Shown one piece after another: positions 24,823-31,320 of a DNA stretch of 37,456 bases. A program made the position numbers and the translations under genes. The stretch lies in contig JAQSWM010000015.1 of NCBI GenBank assembly GCA_029266635.1, forward strand, positions 1 through 37,456, in the 5' to 3' direction. The notes under the pieces are model-generated. The model ran no database searches, was not told the origin of the DNA, and saw only the letters and a list, made by a program, of their open reading frames with translations. This DNA is from Sphingobacteriaceae bacterium. GTDB taxonomy: Bacteria > Bacteroidota > Bacteroidia > Sphingobacteriales > Sphingobacteriaceae. Every line of letters starts with the position of its first letter. Position 1 is the first letter of the stretch.

Positions 24823-26202
24823 CTATTCCGGATTGCTTTCAGTCCACTGTCTACTGAATGACTTTTGCGCCACCTCAGGCATTTCGCGGTGCTTGCCCCA
24901 GCTCTTCCGGAAGAAGTTTTTCATTATCCAATTCTTCATTTTTCCGCCAACCATATCCATTTTACTGCGCTTCAGCATTCCGGTCTTCCACCCTTTCCAG
25001 CCAATCCTTTCCGATGTTGTAGTTAATCCCTCTTTCACCGAATCACGGCGGTTCAAGAGCAGCATTTTGTGGATGTCAATTTTAACAGGGCACACTTCAG
25101 AGCATTTGCCGCAGAGGCTGGAGGCATAGCTCAAATGCTTAAATTCTTCCATCCCACGCAGGTGCGGCGTGATAATCGAGCCAATCGGGCCACTGTACGT
25201 GGTTTCATATGTATGCCCGCCGATGTTTTTGTAAATAGGGCAGGCGTTCAGGCAAGCGCCGCAGCGGATGCAGTACAAACCCTGTCGTAGGTCTTTTTGA
25301 GCCAAAAGATTTGTGCGGCCGTTGTCTAAGAGGATCACGTACATTTCTTCCGGGCCATCAGTTTCGCCTTCCTGCCGCGGCCCGCTCATAATGGTATTGT
25401 AAACGGTAAGGTTTTGGCCTGTGCCGTGGGTGGAGAGCAAAGGCCAGAAAAGGTCCAGGTCGGCAATAGACGGGATCATCTTTTCAATGCCCGCTATTGC
25501 GATGTGGATTTTCGGGAATGTGGTGCAAAGCCGTGCGTTGCCCTCGTTTTCGGTAACGGCGATACTTCCGCTGTCGGCGATCAAAAAATTTGCGCCAGTA
25601 ATGCCGACATCGGCTTTGGTATATTTTTCACGCAGAAGTTCGCGGGCTTTCAAGGTAATCTGCTCCGGCGTTGAGTTGATGTCCATACCAAACTTCTCAT
25701 GGAAAAGCTTTGCGATGTCCTCCTTGCTCAGGTGCATTGCCGGAGTAACAATGTGATATGGCCTTTGCCCAAGCAATTGCACGATATACTCGCCCAAATC
25801 GCTCTCCAGCGACTCAATGCCATGTTCTTCCAGGAAACTGTTCAAATGCAGCTCCTCTGTGGTCATGGATTTAGCTTTTATAACCGTTTTTGCGTTTGCC
25901 TTGCGAATGATGTTCAGGATTTCACGACGGGCTTCTTCAGCATCATTCGCCCAGATCACTTTGCCACCACGCCGCTGAAAATTAGCCTCAAACTCTGGAA
26001 GAAACTTGTCGAGGTTTTCCATCACCTTCCATTTCACCACATGAGCCTTGCGTTTAGAGTTTTCCAGGTTCGCGAAAGGTGATAAGCCGCGTTTTACCGC
26101 CGTATCATACCTCCCGATATTAAAATTAATAATCCGGCGATGGTTCAGATCAAATGCTTTTTCTTCAGAAACTACCTGGAATTCTTCGGCAAGTTTTGTC
26201 AT
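24823..26202 (-). CDS. lutB: L-lactate utilisation iron-sulfur protein LutB
   Basis: LutB carries electrons during L-lactate oxidation as part of the LutABC complex. The 459-residue protein has the LUD-type N-terminal domain (TGANFLIADSGSIAVTENEGN, about residues 202-222) and two 4Fe-4S motifs: CIRCGACLNACP (C311, C314, C317, C321) and CGKCSEVCP (C364, C367, C371). The C-terminal part (ERIGWKGW...) is as in LutB. lutA and lutC are not adjacent here; the flanking genes are unrelated. Its 3' end sits two bases from the convergent ZIP gene. Confidence 0.9.
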   Translation of the reverse strand: MTKLAEEFQVVSEEKAFDLNHRRIINFNIGRYDTAVKRGLSPFANLENSKRKAHVVKWKVMENLDKFLPEFEANFQRRGGKVIWANDAEEARREILNIIRKANAKTVIKAKSMTTEELHLNSFLEEHGIESLESDLGEYIVQLLGQRPYHIVTPAMHLSKEDIAKLFHEKFGMDINSTPEQITLKARELLREKYTKADVGITGANFLIADSGSIAVTENEGNARLCTTFPKIHIAIAGIEKMIPSIADLDLFWPLLSTHGTGQNLTVYNTIMSGPRQEGETDGPEEMYVILLDNGRTNLLAQKDLRQGLYCIRCGACLNACPIYKNIGGHTYETTYSGPIGSIITPHLRGMEEFKHLSYASSLCGKCSEVCPVKIDIHKMLLLNRRDSVKEGLTTTSERIGWKGWKTGMLKRSKMDMVGGKMKNWIMKNFFRKSWGKHREMPEVAQKSFSRQWTESNPE

Positions 26203-26305
26203 ACCGCGAAGTTAGGGATTAAGCCCAAAGCGAGTAGCCATCGCGGCGTGAAAAAAAATAAAATTCCTTGTAACCAATCCGCCTGGAGCAGCGTCTTTCA
26301 AGTAG

Positions 26306-26325
26306 AGGTGCTAGCAACAGCACCT
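26306..26325 (+). other. Perfect hairpin upstream of a lipoprotein gene
   Basis: A seven-base perfect stem (26306-26312 with 26319-26325) encloses a six-base loop and lies 28 bases before the ATG of the lipoprotein. No T tract follows, so it is not a normal terminator. It could be an operator or mRNA structure; no function is shown. Confidence 0.5.
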
Positions 26326-26352
26326 GAACCGATCACAATTAATTTTAATTTT

Positions 26353-27057
26353 ATGAAGAAGTACTTAGTTTATTCAGCACTCGCAGCTTGCTTGTTGCAA
26401 GCATGCTCATCTCAGGTTTACAACAATCAGGGTTTTGTTTCAAGTCATAATCTCACAGGAAAAAAAGTTGCCATACTTCCGGTTGAGGTAGAATTTACAG
26501 GCAATCTCCCAAAAGGATATTCTATTGGCGATAAAATGGCTGCCGAGGAAACCGAAAGCACAGCCATCCAAAACCTCATTTACAGCGAATATCTTTATAA
26601 AGCTGGTTCTGGCAGCAAGAAACGCCATGCGGTAGAGTTGATCAACACCGATCAAATCAACAGCCGATTACGCGAGAAAGGGATTGATGTGCGGGAAGCC
26701 TGGAGTATGAATCCGGATAGCCTGGGCAAAATGGTTGGAGCAGACATGGTGCTGAAAGTACATGTCAAAAAGAATCGGATCATGTCTGAATCTGCCGCAT
26801 TCGGCATTGACGTAGCTACCAATGTAATTGGCGGACTGCTGAGCAAAGGCACTAACAATAGTACTTCGGTAAGCCCCGGCAATACCAAAACATACACCAT
26901 CAACATAGATGCGACACTATCTGACGTGAACAGCAGCACCGTTATTACCAAGTTCTCCCGTCAGGGCGACGCAAGCTGGAGCCAATCGCCGGAAAGCGTG
27001 GTTAAATCGACCGGTAAAAAGATTGTTAGAAAAGGAGTTGTGTACGCACAAGAATAG
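26353..27057 (+). CDS. Lipoprotein of unknown function, CsgG/GNA1162-like opening
   Basis: A 234-residue lipoprotein. The signal peptide ends in the lipobox LLQAC followed by SSQ. The mature protein opens with GKKVAILPVEVEFTG, a pattern that begins the nucleotide-like fold of CsgG, GNA1162 and LpoB-type lipoproteins; later it has VGADMVLKVHVKKN and a Ser/Thr-rich strand region. The similarity is suggestive, not proof. The open frame upstream to 26140 is not real. A good terminator follows, so the gene is probably transcribed alone. Confidence 0.75.
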   Translation: MKKYLVYSALAACLLQACSSQVYNNQGFVSSHNLTGKKVAILPVEVEFTGNLPKGYSIGDKMAAEETESTAIQNLIYSEYLYKAGSGSKKRHAVELINTDQINSRLREKGIDVREAWSMNPDSLGKMVGADMVLKVHVKKNRIMSESAAFGIDVATNVIGGLLSKGTNNSTSVSPGNTKTYTINIDATLSDVNSSTVITKFSRQGDASWSQSPESVVKSTGKKIVRKGVVYAQE

Positions 27058-27196: not shown

Positions 27197-27481
27197 ATGC
27201 TTCATAAACCCGCCATTGAGTCCGGCATTGACAATGCCGCAAAAAGGAAAGCCAGATTAGGAGTCTGGTTCTTTTTCATTTACCTGTTTTTTTATGGGGG
27301 ATTTGTGGCGATAGGAGTCTTAAACTACGAGTTATTGGCTACTCAGGTAACGCTGGGAGTAAACCTTGCGGTATTTTACGGGATGGGCCTCATCCTTTTT
27401 GCTGTGTTGCTCGGAATCTTGTACAACTTCTTATGCTCCAGGTATGAAGACGAAATGAATGAAGGGGAGGCGAAGTCATGA
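27197..27481 (+). CDS. DUF485 (YjcH-like) membrane protein
   Basis: A 94-residue protein with two transmembrane helices (about 22-45 and 55-78) of the DUF485/YjcH family. In E. coli yjcH lies between acs and actP; here it precedes actP and acs. It is thought to assist the acetate symporter, but its role is not settled. Its stop overlaps the actP start by four bases (ATGA). Confidence 0.88.
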   Translation: MLHKPAIESGIDNAAKRKARLGVWFFFIYLFFYGGFVAIGVLNYELLATQVTLGVNLAVFYGMGLILFAVLLGILYNFLCSRYEDEMNEGEAKS

Positions 27482-29400
27482 TCTACGGTATTTCCTACAT
27501 CGCATTAATTTTTTTCGTGCTTTTTGTCGGGGTAGTTCTTGGGCTCTCATTTTATTTCGCTCGTAAAACTAGTTCCGCTTCCTCATACTACGCAGCGGGC
27601 GGACAAATCCACTGGGCAGTTAACGGCATCGCTTTCGCGGGAGATTATCTTTCAGCTGCCTCTTTTCTGGGTATTTGCGGGATGATTGCCACAGCCGGGT
27701 ACGATGGATTCCTATATTCTATTGGCTTCCTTGCGGGATGGATCGTAGCACTTTTCCTGATCGCCGAACCTATGAAAAGACTCGGCAAATACACATTTAC
27801 TGATGCACTGAACTCCACCTTTAAATCGCGGGCCATTACGCTCACGGCAGCGATAAGCACTTTAATAGTTTCAATTTTCTACCTCATTCCCCAAATGGTG
27901 GGTGCAGGCGATCTGGTAACACCACTACTCGGGCTGCCGCATTGGGTCGGCGTTGTACTGGTTGGAATTGTGGTAATCGTCATTGTTGCCAGTGCGGGCA
28001 TGACCTCCACAACCTATGTCCAGTTTATAAAAGGCGGGTTGTTGCTGATCCTTTCCACCATTCTGACCGTCTACATCCTTAAAAACGGATTAAACCTTCA
28101 GCCCGACCACACCGGACAGCCGTATCATCGGTTCATGTCGCTCAGCCCGACAATGTCTGATACTACTGTAGTTTCTGCCGGAGATTGGAAGGTGGTTTCG
28201 CAACAAGATGTAAAAGGAAAGGATTTTGTGAAACTAGAAAAAGACGGCGTTGCAAGATGGTTCCGGCTTAGCCAGAAAGATTCGGCTTACACACTGGCTG
28301 AAGCGCTTTCCATCAGCGAAGGCGAAAACGGTCAAACCTTCTATAACGGCAAGCCGAAAGCACAAGCTAAGTTCTTTCAGGTGGGGCACATGAGCAAGAT
28401 CATTGTAGATGGAAAAGAGGTTAGCAAAACTGGTGCTTTAGGTCCGTTTGAATATCTTTCTACCATCGAAAAGAGTGAAGTCGTTCGCTTTTCCGAAGCC
28501 AAGTTTACCGATAATGGCAAGAAAGTGTCGGTCTATTACCAGGCTAAAACTCCTGGAAAAGACTTCATGCTGCCCGGCTTGAAATACAAAATTGGTAAGG
28601 GTGCAAGCATCTGGAGCCGCCTTGATTTTATCTCGCTAATGCTCGCTTTGTTCCTCGGAACTGCCGCTTTGCCCCACATCCTGATAAGGTATTACACGGT
28701 AAAATCGCAACGTGATGCCCGCAAATCCACCATTCTGGCTATAGCCGCAATCGGCGCCTTTTATGTGCTCACGCTTTTTATGGGATTAGGCGCAGCGGTA
28801 AACGGAGTAATGGATGTGGAATCGAGCAATATGGCTGCGCCGCTTTTGGCCAAGGCTTTCGGTGTTGTGTTATTCTCTATCATATCCGCGGTAGCGTTTG
28901 CAACAATATTGGGAACTGTTTCAGGTCTGATCATCGCTTCTTCCGGCGCAATTGCTCACGACTTGATGGACAATTACTTCAAAGTAAATTTCAACGATGA
29001 CAAGAAAGTGCGGGCTGGGAAAATGGCGGCTTTCGGCGTGGGAATCTTCGCGATAGCTTTGGGAATTTTGTTCAAAGGAATGAACGTTTCTTTCCTTGTG
29101 GGATGGGCATTTTCCATCGCCGCATCGGCAAACCTGCCCGCGATATTATTCCTACTGTTTTGGAAAAGAACTACTGCAAAAGGAATTTCCTGGTCTATCG
29201 TAACAGGCATTGTCAGTTCACTGGCAATCATCCTCACCTCTCCTACCATGTGGGACAGATACGGGCTTGATGCCTCAACCGCCATCCATAAATTGGAAAA
29301 TCCGGCCATTATTTCTTTTCCCTTAGCTATACTTGCAGTATGGTTAGGATCGCTGGCTTCGCAGGATAAAAATGCGGCTGTGCAGCGAACCGAAGCCTAA
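27478..29400 (+). CDS. actP: ActP-like sodium/acetate symporter with an enlarged loop
   Basis: A 640-residue sodium:solute symporter of the ActP group, which imports acetate. The membrane core matches: SSYYAAGGQIHWAVNGIAFAGDYLSAASFLG near the N terminus, FYLIPQMVGAGDLVTPLLG, TSTTYVQFIKG, and after the loop LGTAALPHILIRYYTVKSQRDARKS. E. coli ActP is about 550 residues. The excess lies between residues about 205 and 378, where a hydrophilic region of about 170 residues (rich in Lys, Asp, Ser and Thr) replaces a much shorter loop of about 40. Six helices precede it, so if the N terminus is outside, as is usual in this family, the insert is periplasmic. The operon context with acs supports acetate or a similar short acid as substrate. 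Confidence 0.9.
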   Translation: MIYGISYIALIFFVLFVGVVLGLSFYFARKTSSASSYYAAGGQIHWAVNGIAFAGDYLSAASFLGICGMIATAGYDGFLYSIGFLAGWIVALFLIAEPMKRLGKYTFTDALNSTFKSRAITLTAAISTLIVSIFYLIPQMVGAGDLVTPLLGLPHWVGVVLVGIVVIVIVASAGMTSTTYVQFIKGGLLLILSTILTVYILKNGLNLQPDHTGQPYHRFMSLSPTMSDTTVVSAGDWKVVSQQDVKGKDFVKLEKDGVARWFRLSQKDSAYTLAEALSISEGENGQTFYNGKPKAQAKFFQVGHMSKIIVDGKEVSKTGALGPFEYLSTIEKSEVVRFSEAKFTDNGKKVSVYYQAKTPGKDFMLPGLKYKIGKGASIWSRLDFISLMLALFLGTAALPHILIRYYTVKSQRDARKSTILAIAAIGAFYVLTLFMGLGAAVNGVMDVESSNMAAPLLAKAFGVVLFSIISAVAFATILGTVSGLIIASSGAIAHDLMDNYFKVNFNDDKKVRAGKMAAFGVGIFAIALGILFKGMNVSFLVGWAFSIAASANLPAILFLLFWKRTTAKGISWSIVTGIVSSLAIILTSPTMWDRYGLDASTAIHKLENPAIISFPLAILAVWLGSLASQDKNAAVQRTEA

Positions 29401-29412
29401 ACGCATTCGATT

Positions 29413-31320
29413 ATGGATTTACAGATCAACTCCTTTGAAGATTATAAACGGGTTTACGAATACAGTGTAGCAGAGCCTGAAAAATTTTGGGCGGGCATAG
29501 CTGACACGTTTACCTGGCGCAAAAAGTGGGATAAAGTTCTCAACTGGAATTTCACTGAGCCAAATATCCGATGGTTTGAAGGAGCTAAGCTAAACATTAC
29601 AGAAAACTGTCTCGACAGGCATCTAGAAACGCTCGGCAATCAGCCTGCTATCATTTGGGAGCCCAATGATCCCGAAGAAGATCATCGCGTTTTAACTTAT
29701 AAGCAGTTACACGATAAAGTTTGCCAATTCGCTAACGTACTGAAAAACAATGGCGCACAAAAAGGCGATCGCATTTGCATTTACATGCCAATGGTGCCCG
29801 AGCTGGCCATCGCAGTTCTGGCGTGTGCCCGCATTGGAGCAATCCACTCGGTGGTTTTCGGTGGTTTCTCCGCACAGTCCATCGCCGACAGGATACAGGA
29901 CGCAAGTTGTTCGCTGGTAATTACTTCCGATGGCGCATTCCGCGGCGGCAAAGAAATCCCAATGAAGTCAGTGATTGACGATGCCCTCGTGCGTTGCCCA
30001 TCCGTAAAGAAAGTGATTGTCCTCACCCGCAGCCGTACACCTGTTTCGATGATAAAAGGCCGCGACGCCTGGTGGGAAGATGAGGTCAAAAAGGTTGAAA
30101 CAATGGGCAATCCAGACTGCCCAGCAGAAGAAATGGATGCGGAAGACATGCTCTTCATCCTCTATACTTCCGGCTCTACTGGCAAGCCCAAAGGCGTGGT
30201 ACATACCTGCGGCGGATATATGGTTTATACCGGCTACACTTTCGCAAACGTTTTTCAATATCAGCCAGGCGAAGTTTATTTCTGCACAGCCGATATTGGC
30301 TGGATAACCGGGCATTCATACATTGTTTACGGCCCTCTTTCACAAGGCGCCACCAGCCTAATGTTTGAAGGTATTCCGACTTGGCCGGATGCTGGCCGGC
30401 TCTGGAACATCGTTCAGATACACAAAGCAAATATCCTCTACACCGCTCCTACCGCTCTTCGCTCGCTGATGGGTTTCGGCCTGGATCCGGTGATCGGCAA
30501 AGACCTCAGCTCTTTAAAAAAGCTGGGATCTGTAGGCGAGCCGATAAACGAAGAAGCCTGGCATTGGTTCGACGATCACATCGGGCATAACAAATGCCCC
30601 ATTGTAGATACGTGGTGGCAAACGGAAACTGGAGGGATCATGATATCGCCAATTGCAGGCGTCACCCCTACCAAGCCTGGTTACGCAACCTTGCCACTGC
30701 CGGGCATTCAACCTATTCTGGTTGACGAAAATGGGAAAGAAATTGAGGGGAACGACGTAAGCGGGAATTTGTGTATCAGGTATCCGTGGCCGGGAATGCT
30801 TCGCACCACATACGGTGATCATGAACGCTGCCGCACCACGTATTTCGCTACATACGAAAATCTCTATTTTACCGGCGATGGCTGCCTCCGCGATGCGGAT
30901 GGCTATTACAAGATAACAGGCCGGGTGGATGATGTGCTAAACGTATCCGGTCACAGGCTTGGGACTGCAGAGGTAGAAAACGCCATCAACATGCACGCAA
31001 ATGTGATAGAATCGGCAGTGGTGGGCTATCCGCACGATATAAAAGGCCAGGGCGTTTACGCATTTGTGGTTTGCCCTGAAAAGCATGGAACCGACGAATC
31101 TACCCGCAAGGACATCGTGATGACGGTTTCCCGGATCATCGGGCCAATCGCCAAACCAGATAAAATTCAGTTTGTATCCGGCTTGCCGAAAACACGTTCC
31201 GGAAAGATTATGCGCAGGATTTTGAGGAAAATCGCTGAAGGTGATACCTCGAATCTTGGCGATACATCAACTTTGCTTGACCCGGCAGTGGTAACCGAAA
31301 TAAAGGAAGGAAGAATTTAA
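29413..31320 (+). CDS. acs: Acetyl-CoA synthetase
   Basis: Acs makes acetyl-CoA from acetate, ATP and CoA. The 635-residue protein has the P-loop-like YTSGSTGKPKG (251-261), the acetate-binding region WWQTETGGIMISP, the hinge and C-terminal segment ITGRVDDVLNVSGHRLGTAEVE, and the conserved lysine K598 in RSGKIMRR that is acetylated to regulate the enzyme. It starts 12 bases after actP, completing a DUF485-actP-acs operon for acetate uptake and activation. Length and motifs match AMP-forming Acs rather than propionyl-CoA synthetase, though the two are close. Confidence 0.96.
   Translation: MDLQINSFEDYKRVYEYSVAEPEKFWAGIADTFTWRKKWDKVLNWNFTEPNIRWFEGAKLNITENCLDRHLETLGNQPAIIWEPNDPEEDHRVLTYKQLHDKVCQFANVLKNNGAQKGDRICIYMPMVPELAIAVLACARIGAIHSVVFGGFSAQSIADRIQDASCSLVITSDGAFRGGKEIPMKSVIDDALVRCPSVKKVIVLTRSRTPVSMIKGRDAWWEDEVKKVETMGNPDCPAEEMDAEDMLFILYTSGSTGKPKGVVHTCGGYMVYTGYTFANVFQYQPGEVYFCTADIGWITGHSYIVYGPLSQGATSLMFEGIPTWPDAGRLWNIVQIHKANILYTAPTALRSLMGFGLDPVIGKDLSSLKKLGSVGEPINEEAWHWFDDHIGHNKCPIVDTWWQTETGGIMISPIAGVTPTKPGYATLPLPGIQPILVDENGKEIEGNDVSGNLCIRYPWPGMLRTTYGDHERCRTTYFATYENLYFTGDGCLRDADGYYKITGRVDDVLNVSGHRLGTAEVENAINMHANVIESAVVGYPHDIKGQGVYAFVVCPEKHGTDESTRKDIVMTVSRIIGPIAKPDKIQFVSGLPKTRSGKIMRRILRKIAEGDTSNLGDTSTLLDPAVVTEIKEGRI

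Follow-up and report, generated by a model that had tools for sequence, protein, structure and literature searches.

The stretch of DNA that we analysed (the window: 37,456 nt, forward strand of contig JAQSWM010000015.1 in assembly GCA_029266635.1, from a Sphingobacteriaceae bacterium) encodes, on the plus strand at 27478-29400, a 640-residue ActP-like sodium/solute symporter of a type that we call long. The protein matches the SSF profile (PF00474) at E 6e-69 and 233.3 bits, well above the gathering score of 22.8, with the match split into two stretches. PMC7918813 defines the SSS family (TC 2.A.21) by 13-15 helices, an N terminus outside and a LeuT-type core, and the symporter belongs to this family by its profile score, helix count and N-out charge pattern. 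In the best AlphaFold2 model, built from 60 of the 79 aligned sequences (pLDDT 86.5, pTM 0.87; pLDDT 76.9-79.2 in the remaining four), we read 13 predicted membrane helices, and SSS structures rank first in the fold search. Four NCBIfam models score below their cut-offs: MctC (NF058657), which gives the top score (460.3 bits against 670, in two stretches), the ActP models TIGR02711 (350.3 against 1099.25) and PRK09395 (415), and the VC_2705 family TIGR03648 (240.9 against 320.75), so that the protein is assigned to neither the MctC nor the ActP equivalog. Its own genome (3.6 Mb, 18 contigs) holds one such symporter, the three other matches being remote (E 7e-5 to 8e-4).

The start of the symporter gene overlaps by 4 bases the gene of a 94-residue DUF485 membrane protein (27197-27481, plus strand; PF04341, E 9.6e-9), and the next gene after it (29413-31320, plus strand) encodes acetate--CoA ligase, Acs (TIGR02188, 939 bits, above the cut-off of 724.95). 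The E. coli K-12 order acs-yjcH-actP brings together the same three partners, with DUF485 again beside actP; BLASTP gave no alignment between the window's DUF485 protein and YjcH, and membership is taken from the Pfam match for the former and from the record name for the latter. According to PMC5715377, the CrbS/R acetate regulon of Pseudomonas fluorescens includes a DUF485 protein, ActP and a CBS/nucleotidyltransferase protein, and deleting the gene of any of the three had a negligible effect on growth on acetate. Further upstream of the symporter, on the minus strand at 24823-26202, lies a LutB/LldF-type L-lactate oxidation iron-sulfur protein (TIGR00273, above the cut-off), with two ORFs between them; besides acetate, the symporter could take lactate or pyruvate. 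The ORF between LutB and DUF485 (26140-27057, plus strand) matches nothing in Pfam or NCBIfam at E 1, and its true start is probably later, since an inner Met opens a lipoprotein-like signal, MKKYLVYSALAACLLQACSS.

What sets the symporter apart is a stretch of 174 residues (204-377; 28087-28608, plus strand), delimited by the AlphaFold2 model, between helix 6 (residues 175-203; 28000-28086, plus strand) and helix 7 (residues 378-407, broken at 398; 28609-28698, plus strand). The earlier note had drawn it, almost identically, as a hydrophilic extra loop of about 170 residues at 205-378. By our reading of the model, helix 6 would correspond to TM5 and helix 7 to TM6a/6b in the LeuT core, and the insert would occupy EL3, the loop between TM5 and TM6. 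It is indeed hydrophilic, with no membrane-like segment (highest 19-residue Kyte-Doolittle mean 0.32), and holds 25 K/R and 19 D/E (net +6) and no Cys, a residue found in the insert of only 6 of 79 members (the window protein and relatives from the best 80 of at least 538). The inner loops of the symporter have 9 K/R and 2 D/E in 55 residues; the outer loops have 8 K/R in 89 residues, K/R being counted over only 30 end residues of the insert, and 24 D/E, 19 of them from the whole insert. This pattern fits, although not overwhelmingly, the N-out topology and periplasmic position that had been proposed. In E. coli K-12 ActP, 41% identical, 34 residues, counted by eye, align to residues 204-383 of the window protein (180 residues), close to the figure of about 40 given before. 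Across an 82-row alignment the same region measures 31-67 residues in the 25 short rows and 162-281 in the 57 long rows, with none between.

Modelled alone on all 79 sequences (residues 205-377), the insert reaches pLDDT 90.3 and pTM 0.83 (pLDDT 88.9-90.3 over five models). The model is mostly beta, in agreement with the folded module suggested from the letters, with 11 strands of at least 3 residues and two helices, of 10 and 4 residues. A run of strands is predicted to be followed by a short hairpin, the longer helix (piece residues 119-128) and finally a pair of long strands, the last residues, which return to the membrane, being weakly modelled. Among the 79 insert members, a Pfam scan gave 19 families at E 0.1, each matching one member and none common to members, and an NCBIfam scan gave 2 families at 0.01, each in one member. 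Foldseek returned nothing at E 0.001 or better from the PDB (best 0.053) and nothing at 0.001 from BFVD. Searched by insert profile, the PDB sequences yielded only two Large subunit GTPase 1 sequences (E 0.58 and 0.62), which we reject as an identification; the top VIA-align result among Foldseek's 1000, an SSU processome chain with Z 6.0 across 46 residues, is rejected too, and a Z under 8 may reflect a common arrangement only. The fold matches are weak and partial and lead to no identification, and the predicted fold could still be a known one.

In the DNA searched, the insert also keeps to its carrier. Within the window's phylum (395 genomes) its profile had 4 matches below 1e-3, all long ActPs; within the phylum of genome G455 (145 genomes) it had 9, all ActP-like proteins on reading; an insert-only search of the window's own genome found no match outside the symporter, and tblastn against 72,556 plasmid records found none at 1e-3. 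A literature search of CC0, CC BY and CC BY-SA papers found no paper on it. The insert is a real, widespread domain with no family name in Pfam or NCBIfam, in a known kind of carrier.

One likeness deserves separate mention. Five weaker insert-profile matches in the G455 phylum (L214, L215, L216, L218 and L219; E 0.004-0.07) lie within alanyl-tRNA synthetase and centre on VGxFSKExCGGxHxxxTGxLGxF, the NCBIfam alanine--tRNA ligase model is matched by one insert member (0.0059), and hhalign of the insert alignment against five synthetases, templates chosen because they already matched the insert profile, gave a probability of 90% and, as a single comparison, E 1.4e-6 over 71 columns (reversed control 0.1%). 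The Pfam synthetase domain is listed for none of the 79 members, and among the six resolved of 16 loci with weak hits in the window's phylum no synthetase was recognised. Alanyl-tRNA synthetase has strands where the insert model has its helix 119-128. Because of the pre-selected templates, the lack of Pfam support and the helix set against strands, we do not accept kinship; the likeness is probably due to chance, although this is not settled.

A scan of named genomes with a ten-sequence alignment found at least 538 relatives, and of the best 80 all 78 with a frame read are long (L131 and L137, with frames of 639 and 641 aa, were left out by a motif filter); since it was ordered by similarity to the query, this set is silent on how frequent long forms are. 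Record titles place the best 80 of at least 538 in Bacteroidota, Ignavibacteria, Acidobacteria, Aminicenantes, two Desulfobacter isolates, Spirochaetes, Lentisphaerae and others, and single phylum labels may be wrong because many records are metagenome bins. The proportion of long forms can be taken from two phylum samples. Among the 395 genomes of the window's phylum, with at most 3 candidates scored per genome, 13 match at E 1e-30 or better, of which four are long (the window's own, G346, G231 and G439), eight measured short, and one (G399) cut near a contig end; the insert alone, or its profile, retrieves the identical four. In the phylum of Desulfobacter latus (G445), with at most 5 candidates per genome, 30 of 247 genomes match and nine of these carry a one-piece long form. 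Long forms are thus a minority in both samples, and a loop of the same length in most ActPs, which the earlier note had named as counting against its claim, is not what we find (E. coli's is short; long in 4/13 and 9/30 genomes). In a further set of 60 relatives' genomes including the window's own, the long form occurs in 7 and a clear short form, of 520 aa, in G047. Loci L043, L155, L172, L173, L176, L178 and L185, with no readable frame, were left out of the loop measurement. The insert that was to be sought in other Bacteroidota ActPs does occur there, but it is peculiar neither to the window protein nor to Bacteroidota: it marks an ActP-like subfamily present in several phyla and is not a species oddity. 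G455 carries two long-type symporters (L143/L206 and L152/L220), one standard and one with a highly divergent EL3 region of 231 residues.

In a core-only tree of 57 long and 25 short rows, with the insert columns removed, the long forms make one clade (support 100/99), and each of 200 bootstrap trees (100%) has a single long/short change. These 82 rows include one in three of L058-L137 and seven divergent long forms, L207-L213 (L210 trimmed at an inner Met), and leave out L154, L186 and L138-L151, the last from the same genomes as earlier loci; long branches remain at L153, L213, L152, L038, L046, L012 and L045. A quick core-only tree of 97 of 118 rows, a set that overlaps the first, shows the same single split with support 99, under long-branch warnings (L154, L186 and others). 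We define the long-type clade, for this analysis only, by an EL3 of about 160-280 residues together with placement among the long forms that group as one clade in the core tree; with 180 EL3 residues and a place in that clade (100/99), the symporter is a member of this clade of ActP-like SSS monocarboxylate symporters. The simplest reading of the tree is that the insert was gained once, on the stem of the long clade; its loss in the short forms seems less likely because of the root used (L046 and L153). The nearest short form, L038, itself a long branch, has a 506-aa frame with 52% and 59% identity in its two pieces. Its short loop terminates in FMAPGMKFKDPLDF, to which the long forms retain a likeness as FMLPGLKYK, and the insert therefore appears to have been placed just before an older motif. 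In the basal long forms L152, L210, L212 and L213, of the G455 phylum, the YNG/QVGH motifs are missing or changed, and the EL3 region spans 165-281 residues.

TM6a moves during transport in the LeuT fold. Because the domain runs straight into TM6a, we consider a gate-linked cap its most likely role. Our best explanation, which we hold tentatively and at somewhat less than an even chance, is that the long-type clade once acquired a folded beta domain, facing the periplasm, in EL3, where the two inverted repeats of the LeuT fold meet; that the domain would pack as a cap over part of the outer vestibule and move with the outer gate; and that it would alter access or affinity for the substrate or cation, as proposed for the EL3/EL4 domain of KCC4. 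A tight, universal contact with the gate fits poorly, because L152, L210, L212 and L213 vary in motif and length.

Another possibility, which we regard as unlikely, is that the insert is a periplasmic ligand-binding or sensing domain for substrate, cation or a small ligand, feeding or modulating the transporter, much like the substrate-binding or regulatory role raised in the earlier note. It would make sense of a block of invariant or nearly invariant polar residues and glycines (YNG, QVGH, DGxEV, TG) within a domain that evolves faster than the rest of the protein. The first half of the insert is variable, and the conserved run falls in the second half, with LYNG, FYQVGH, DGxEV, TGxxGPF and RF; the best-conserved core of the 79-row alignment covers residues 288-324 (28339-28449, plus strand; FYNGKPKAQAKFFQVGHMSKIIVDGKEVSKTGALGPF), in which N290, G291, F299, V302, G303 and G312 are invariant and positions 288, 289, 301, 304, 314, 315, 318, 319 and 323 nearly so. 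The basic make-up of the insert would also suit carboxylates. Against this, neither Pfam, the PDB profile search, Foldseek nor VIA-align revealed a likeness to known binding proteins by sequence or fold, the motifs are lost or altered in the divergent long forms, and structural turns would be just as likely to give conserved glycine-rich motifs.

The gene neighbourhood bears on the idea that the insert is a docking platform for an envelope protein, be it the DUF485 partner, an outer-membrane channel or a sensor, which also seems unlikely to us. Among the long loci from the best 80 of at least 538 relatives, all 72 whose upstream DNA exceeds 700 nt have DUF485 as the immediate upstream gene; with shorter flanks included the count is 76 of 78, and the two loci without it offer 15 and 71 nt. 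Yet DUF485, sought with a profile made from the window and the long loci, also turns up in the flanking DNA retrieved for 17 of 31 loci of short type or with a split match (14 of the 25 with a measured loop), and it lies beside E. coli actP as well. Since long and short forms share gene company, DUF485 is unlikely to be the reason for the insert, and the suggestion that the loop is a partner site for DUF485 is weakened. Two more families could supply a docking partner. One, grouped by single-linkage BLASTP and with a representative carrying sCache_2, PAS, CBS and DUF294, occurs at 32 of 78 long loci from the best 80 of at least 538, up- or downstream of the symporter (1342 nt downstream in L082), but a DUF294 protein adjoins the short-type L041 too. 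The other, about 410-435 aa long, looks porin-like, is matched by no Pfam family at 0.001 and occurs at 24 of these 78, including L068. By eye, a porin-like-looking protein is also seen near the short-type L040, L041, L044 and L046. A regulator that by eye resembles CRP/FNR is divergent at 14 of 78 long loci from the best 80 of at least 538, including L083, on the opposite strand and, in 13 of the 14, about 340-440 nt upstream. No neighbour specific to the long form emerged from the clustering, which covered the neighbours of long forms only. Because some neighbours are common to long forms and short ActPs, a like solute class may be expected for both, and the window protein probably transports acetate or a comparable short monocarboxylate; acetate itself is not secured, because Acs lies within 1.5 kb downstream in just 4 of 67 long loci with room (best 80 of at least 538).

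It seems quite unlikely that the insert is a structural passenger, stabilising or protective, gained once and with no specific role in transport. Such a passenger would agree with its pace of change and with the wide variation in basal members: median dN/dS is 0.104 in the insert and 0.028 in the rest of the symporter, about 3.7 times faster (17 close pairs with both dS between 0 and 2.5, among 40 computed of 61), values that are rough because dS is near saturation. Identity to the window protein is 36-70% in the insert (209-362) and 72-91% in the core over the 78 relatives from the best 80 of at least 538. The insert is nevertheless under purifying selection, and a passenger accords poorly with its invariant residues, with the absence of any domain loss within the long clade among the 82 tree rows, and with a length that is nearly constant across phyla: the region aligned to 205-377 spans 157-184 aa over the same 78 relatives, 72 of which fall within 170-174. 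A mis-assembly, wrong translation or disordered linker is extremely improbable given a single open frame in the window and in these 78 relatives, the confident model and a dN/dS of about 0.1; disorder with no conserved residues, which had been named as the finding that would speak against a folded module, is the opposite of what we see.

To our knowledge, LeuT-fold carriers are mostly regarded as bare membrane cores. The natural set of long and short ActPs, which are separated by one event on the tree and have some neighbours in common, would allow a domain-swap test of a large external domain on a LeuT-fold symporter. Because the domain matched no named family here, its structure could add one.

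Among known systems, E. coli ActP (YjcG), an acetate/glycolate:cation symporter of the SSS family, is alike in sequence (41% identical) and in its company of DUF485 and Acs; it differs in that just 34 of its residues align to the region of 180 in the window protein. This short ActP transports without the insert (PMC7918813), a point against the cap. The MctC-type model (NF058657) has 527 positions against 640 residues. CHT1, SGLT2-MAP17, SGLT1-MAP17, NIS and SMCT1 are alike in the fold of the transmembrane core (best CHT1 9bim, E 7.1e-13, TM 0.65 by query) and differ in sequence, at 11-14% identity; MAP17 is a small membrane partner of an SSS protein, and DUF485 might be likewise. The nearest parallel to the insert itself is KCC4, an SLC12 and not an SSS protein, in which the same LeuT-fold loop, EL3 between TM5 and TM6, also holds a large domain and leads to TM6A (PMC7200160). 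As described there, EL3 and EL4 form a domain that covers about two thirds of the outer face, is poised to regulate transport through the outer gate and may be coupled to TM6A; N312Q, at a glycosylation site of the domain, and mutants of gate contacts on EL4 and TM1 cut transport, whereas K485A did not, and the gate contacts cited lie on EL4 and TM1, not on EL3 (PMC7200160). The KCC loop has predicted disulfides (PMC7200160), while the window insert has no Cys; none of the KCC chains in the PDB was matched by the insert profile with E allowed up to 5, and the 50 fold matches listed for the insert contain no KCC protein. As these searches gave no link in sequence or fold, we take the parallel as one of position, with kinship unsupported so far. 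It is possible, if doubtful, that the insert represents an undescribed domain family confined to one SSS clade, a gate-coupled EL3 cap that would have arisen in independent parallel to that of the KCCs and would tune affinity or rectification in a cation-coupled carboxylate carrier.
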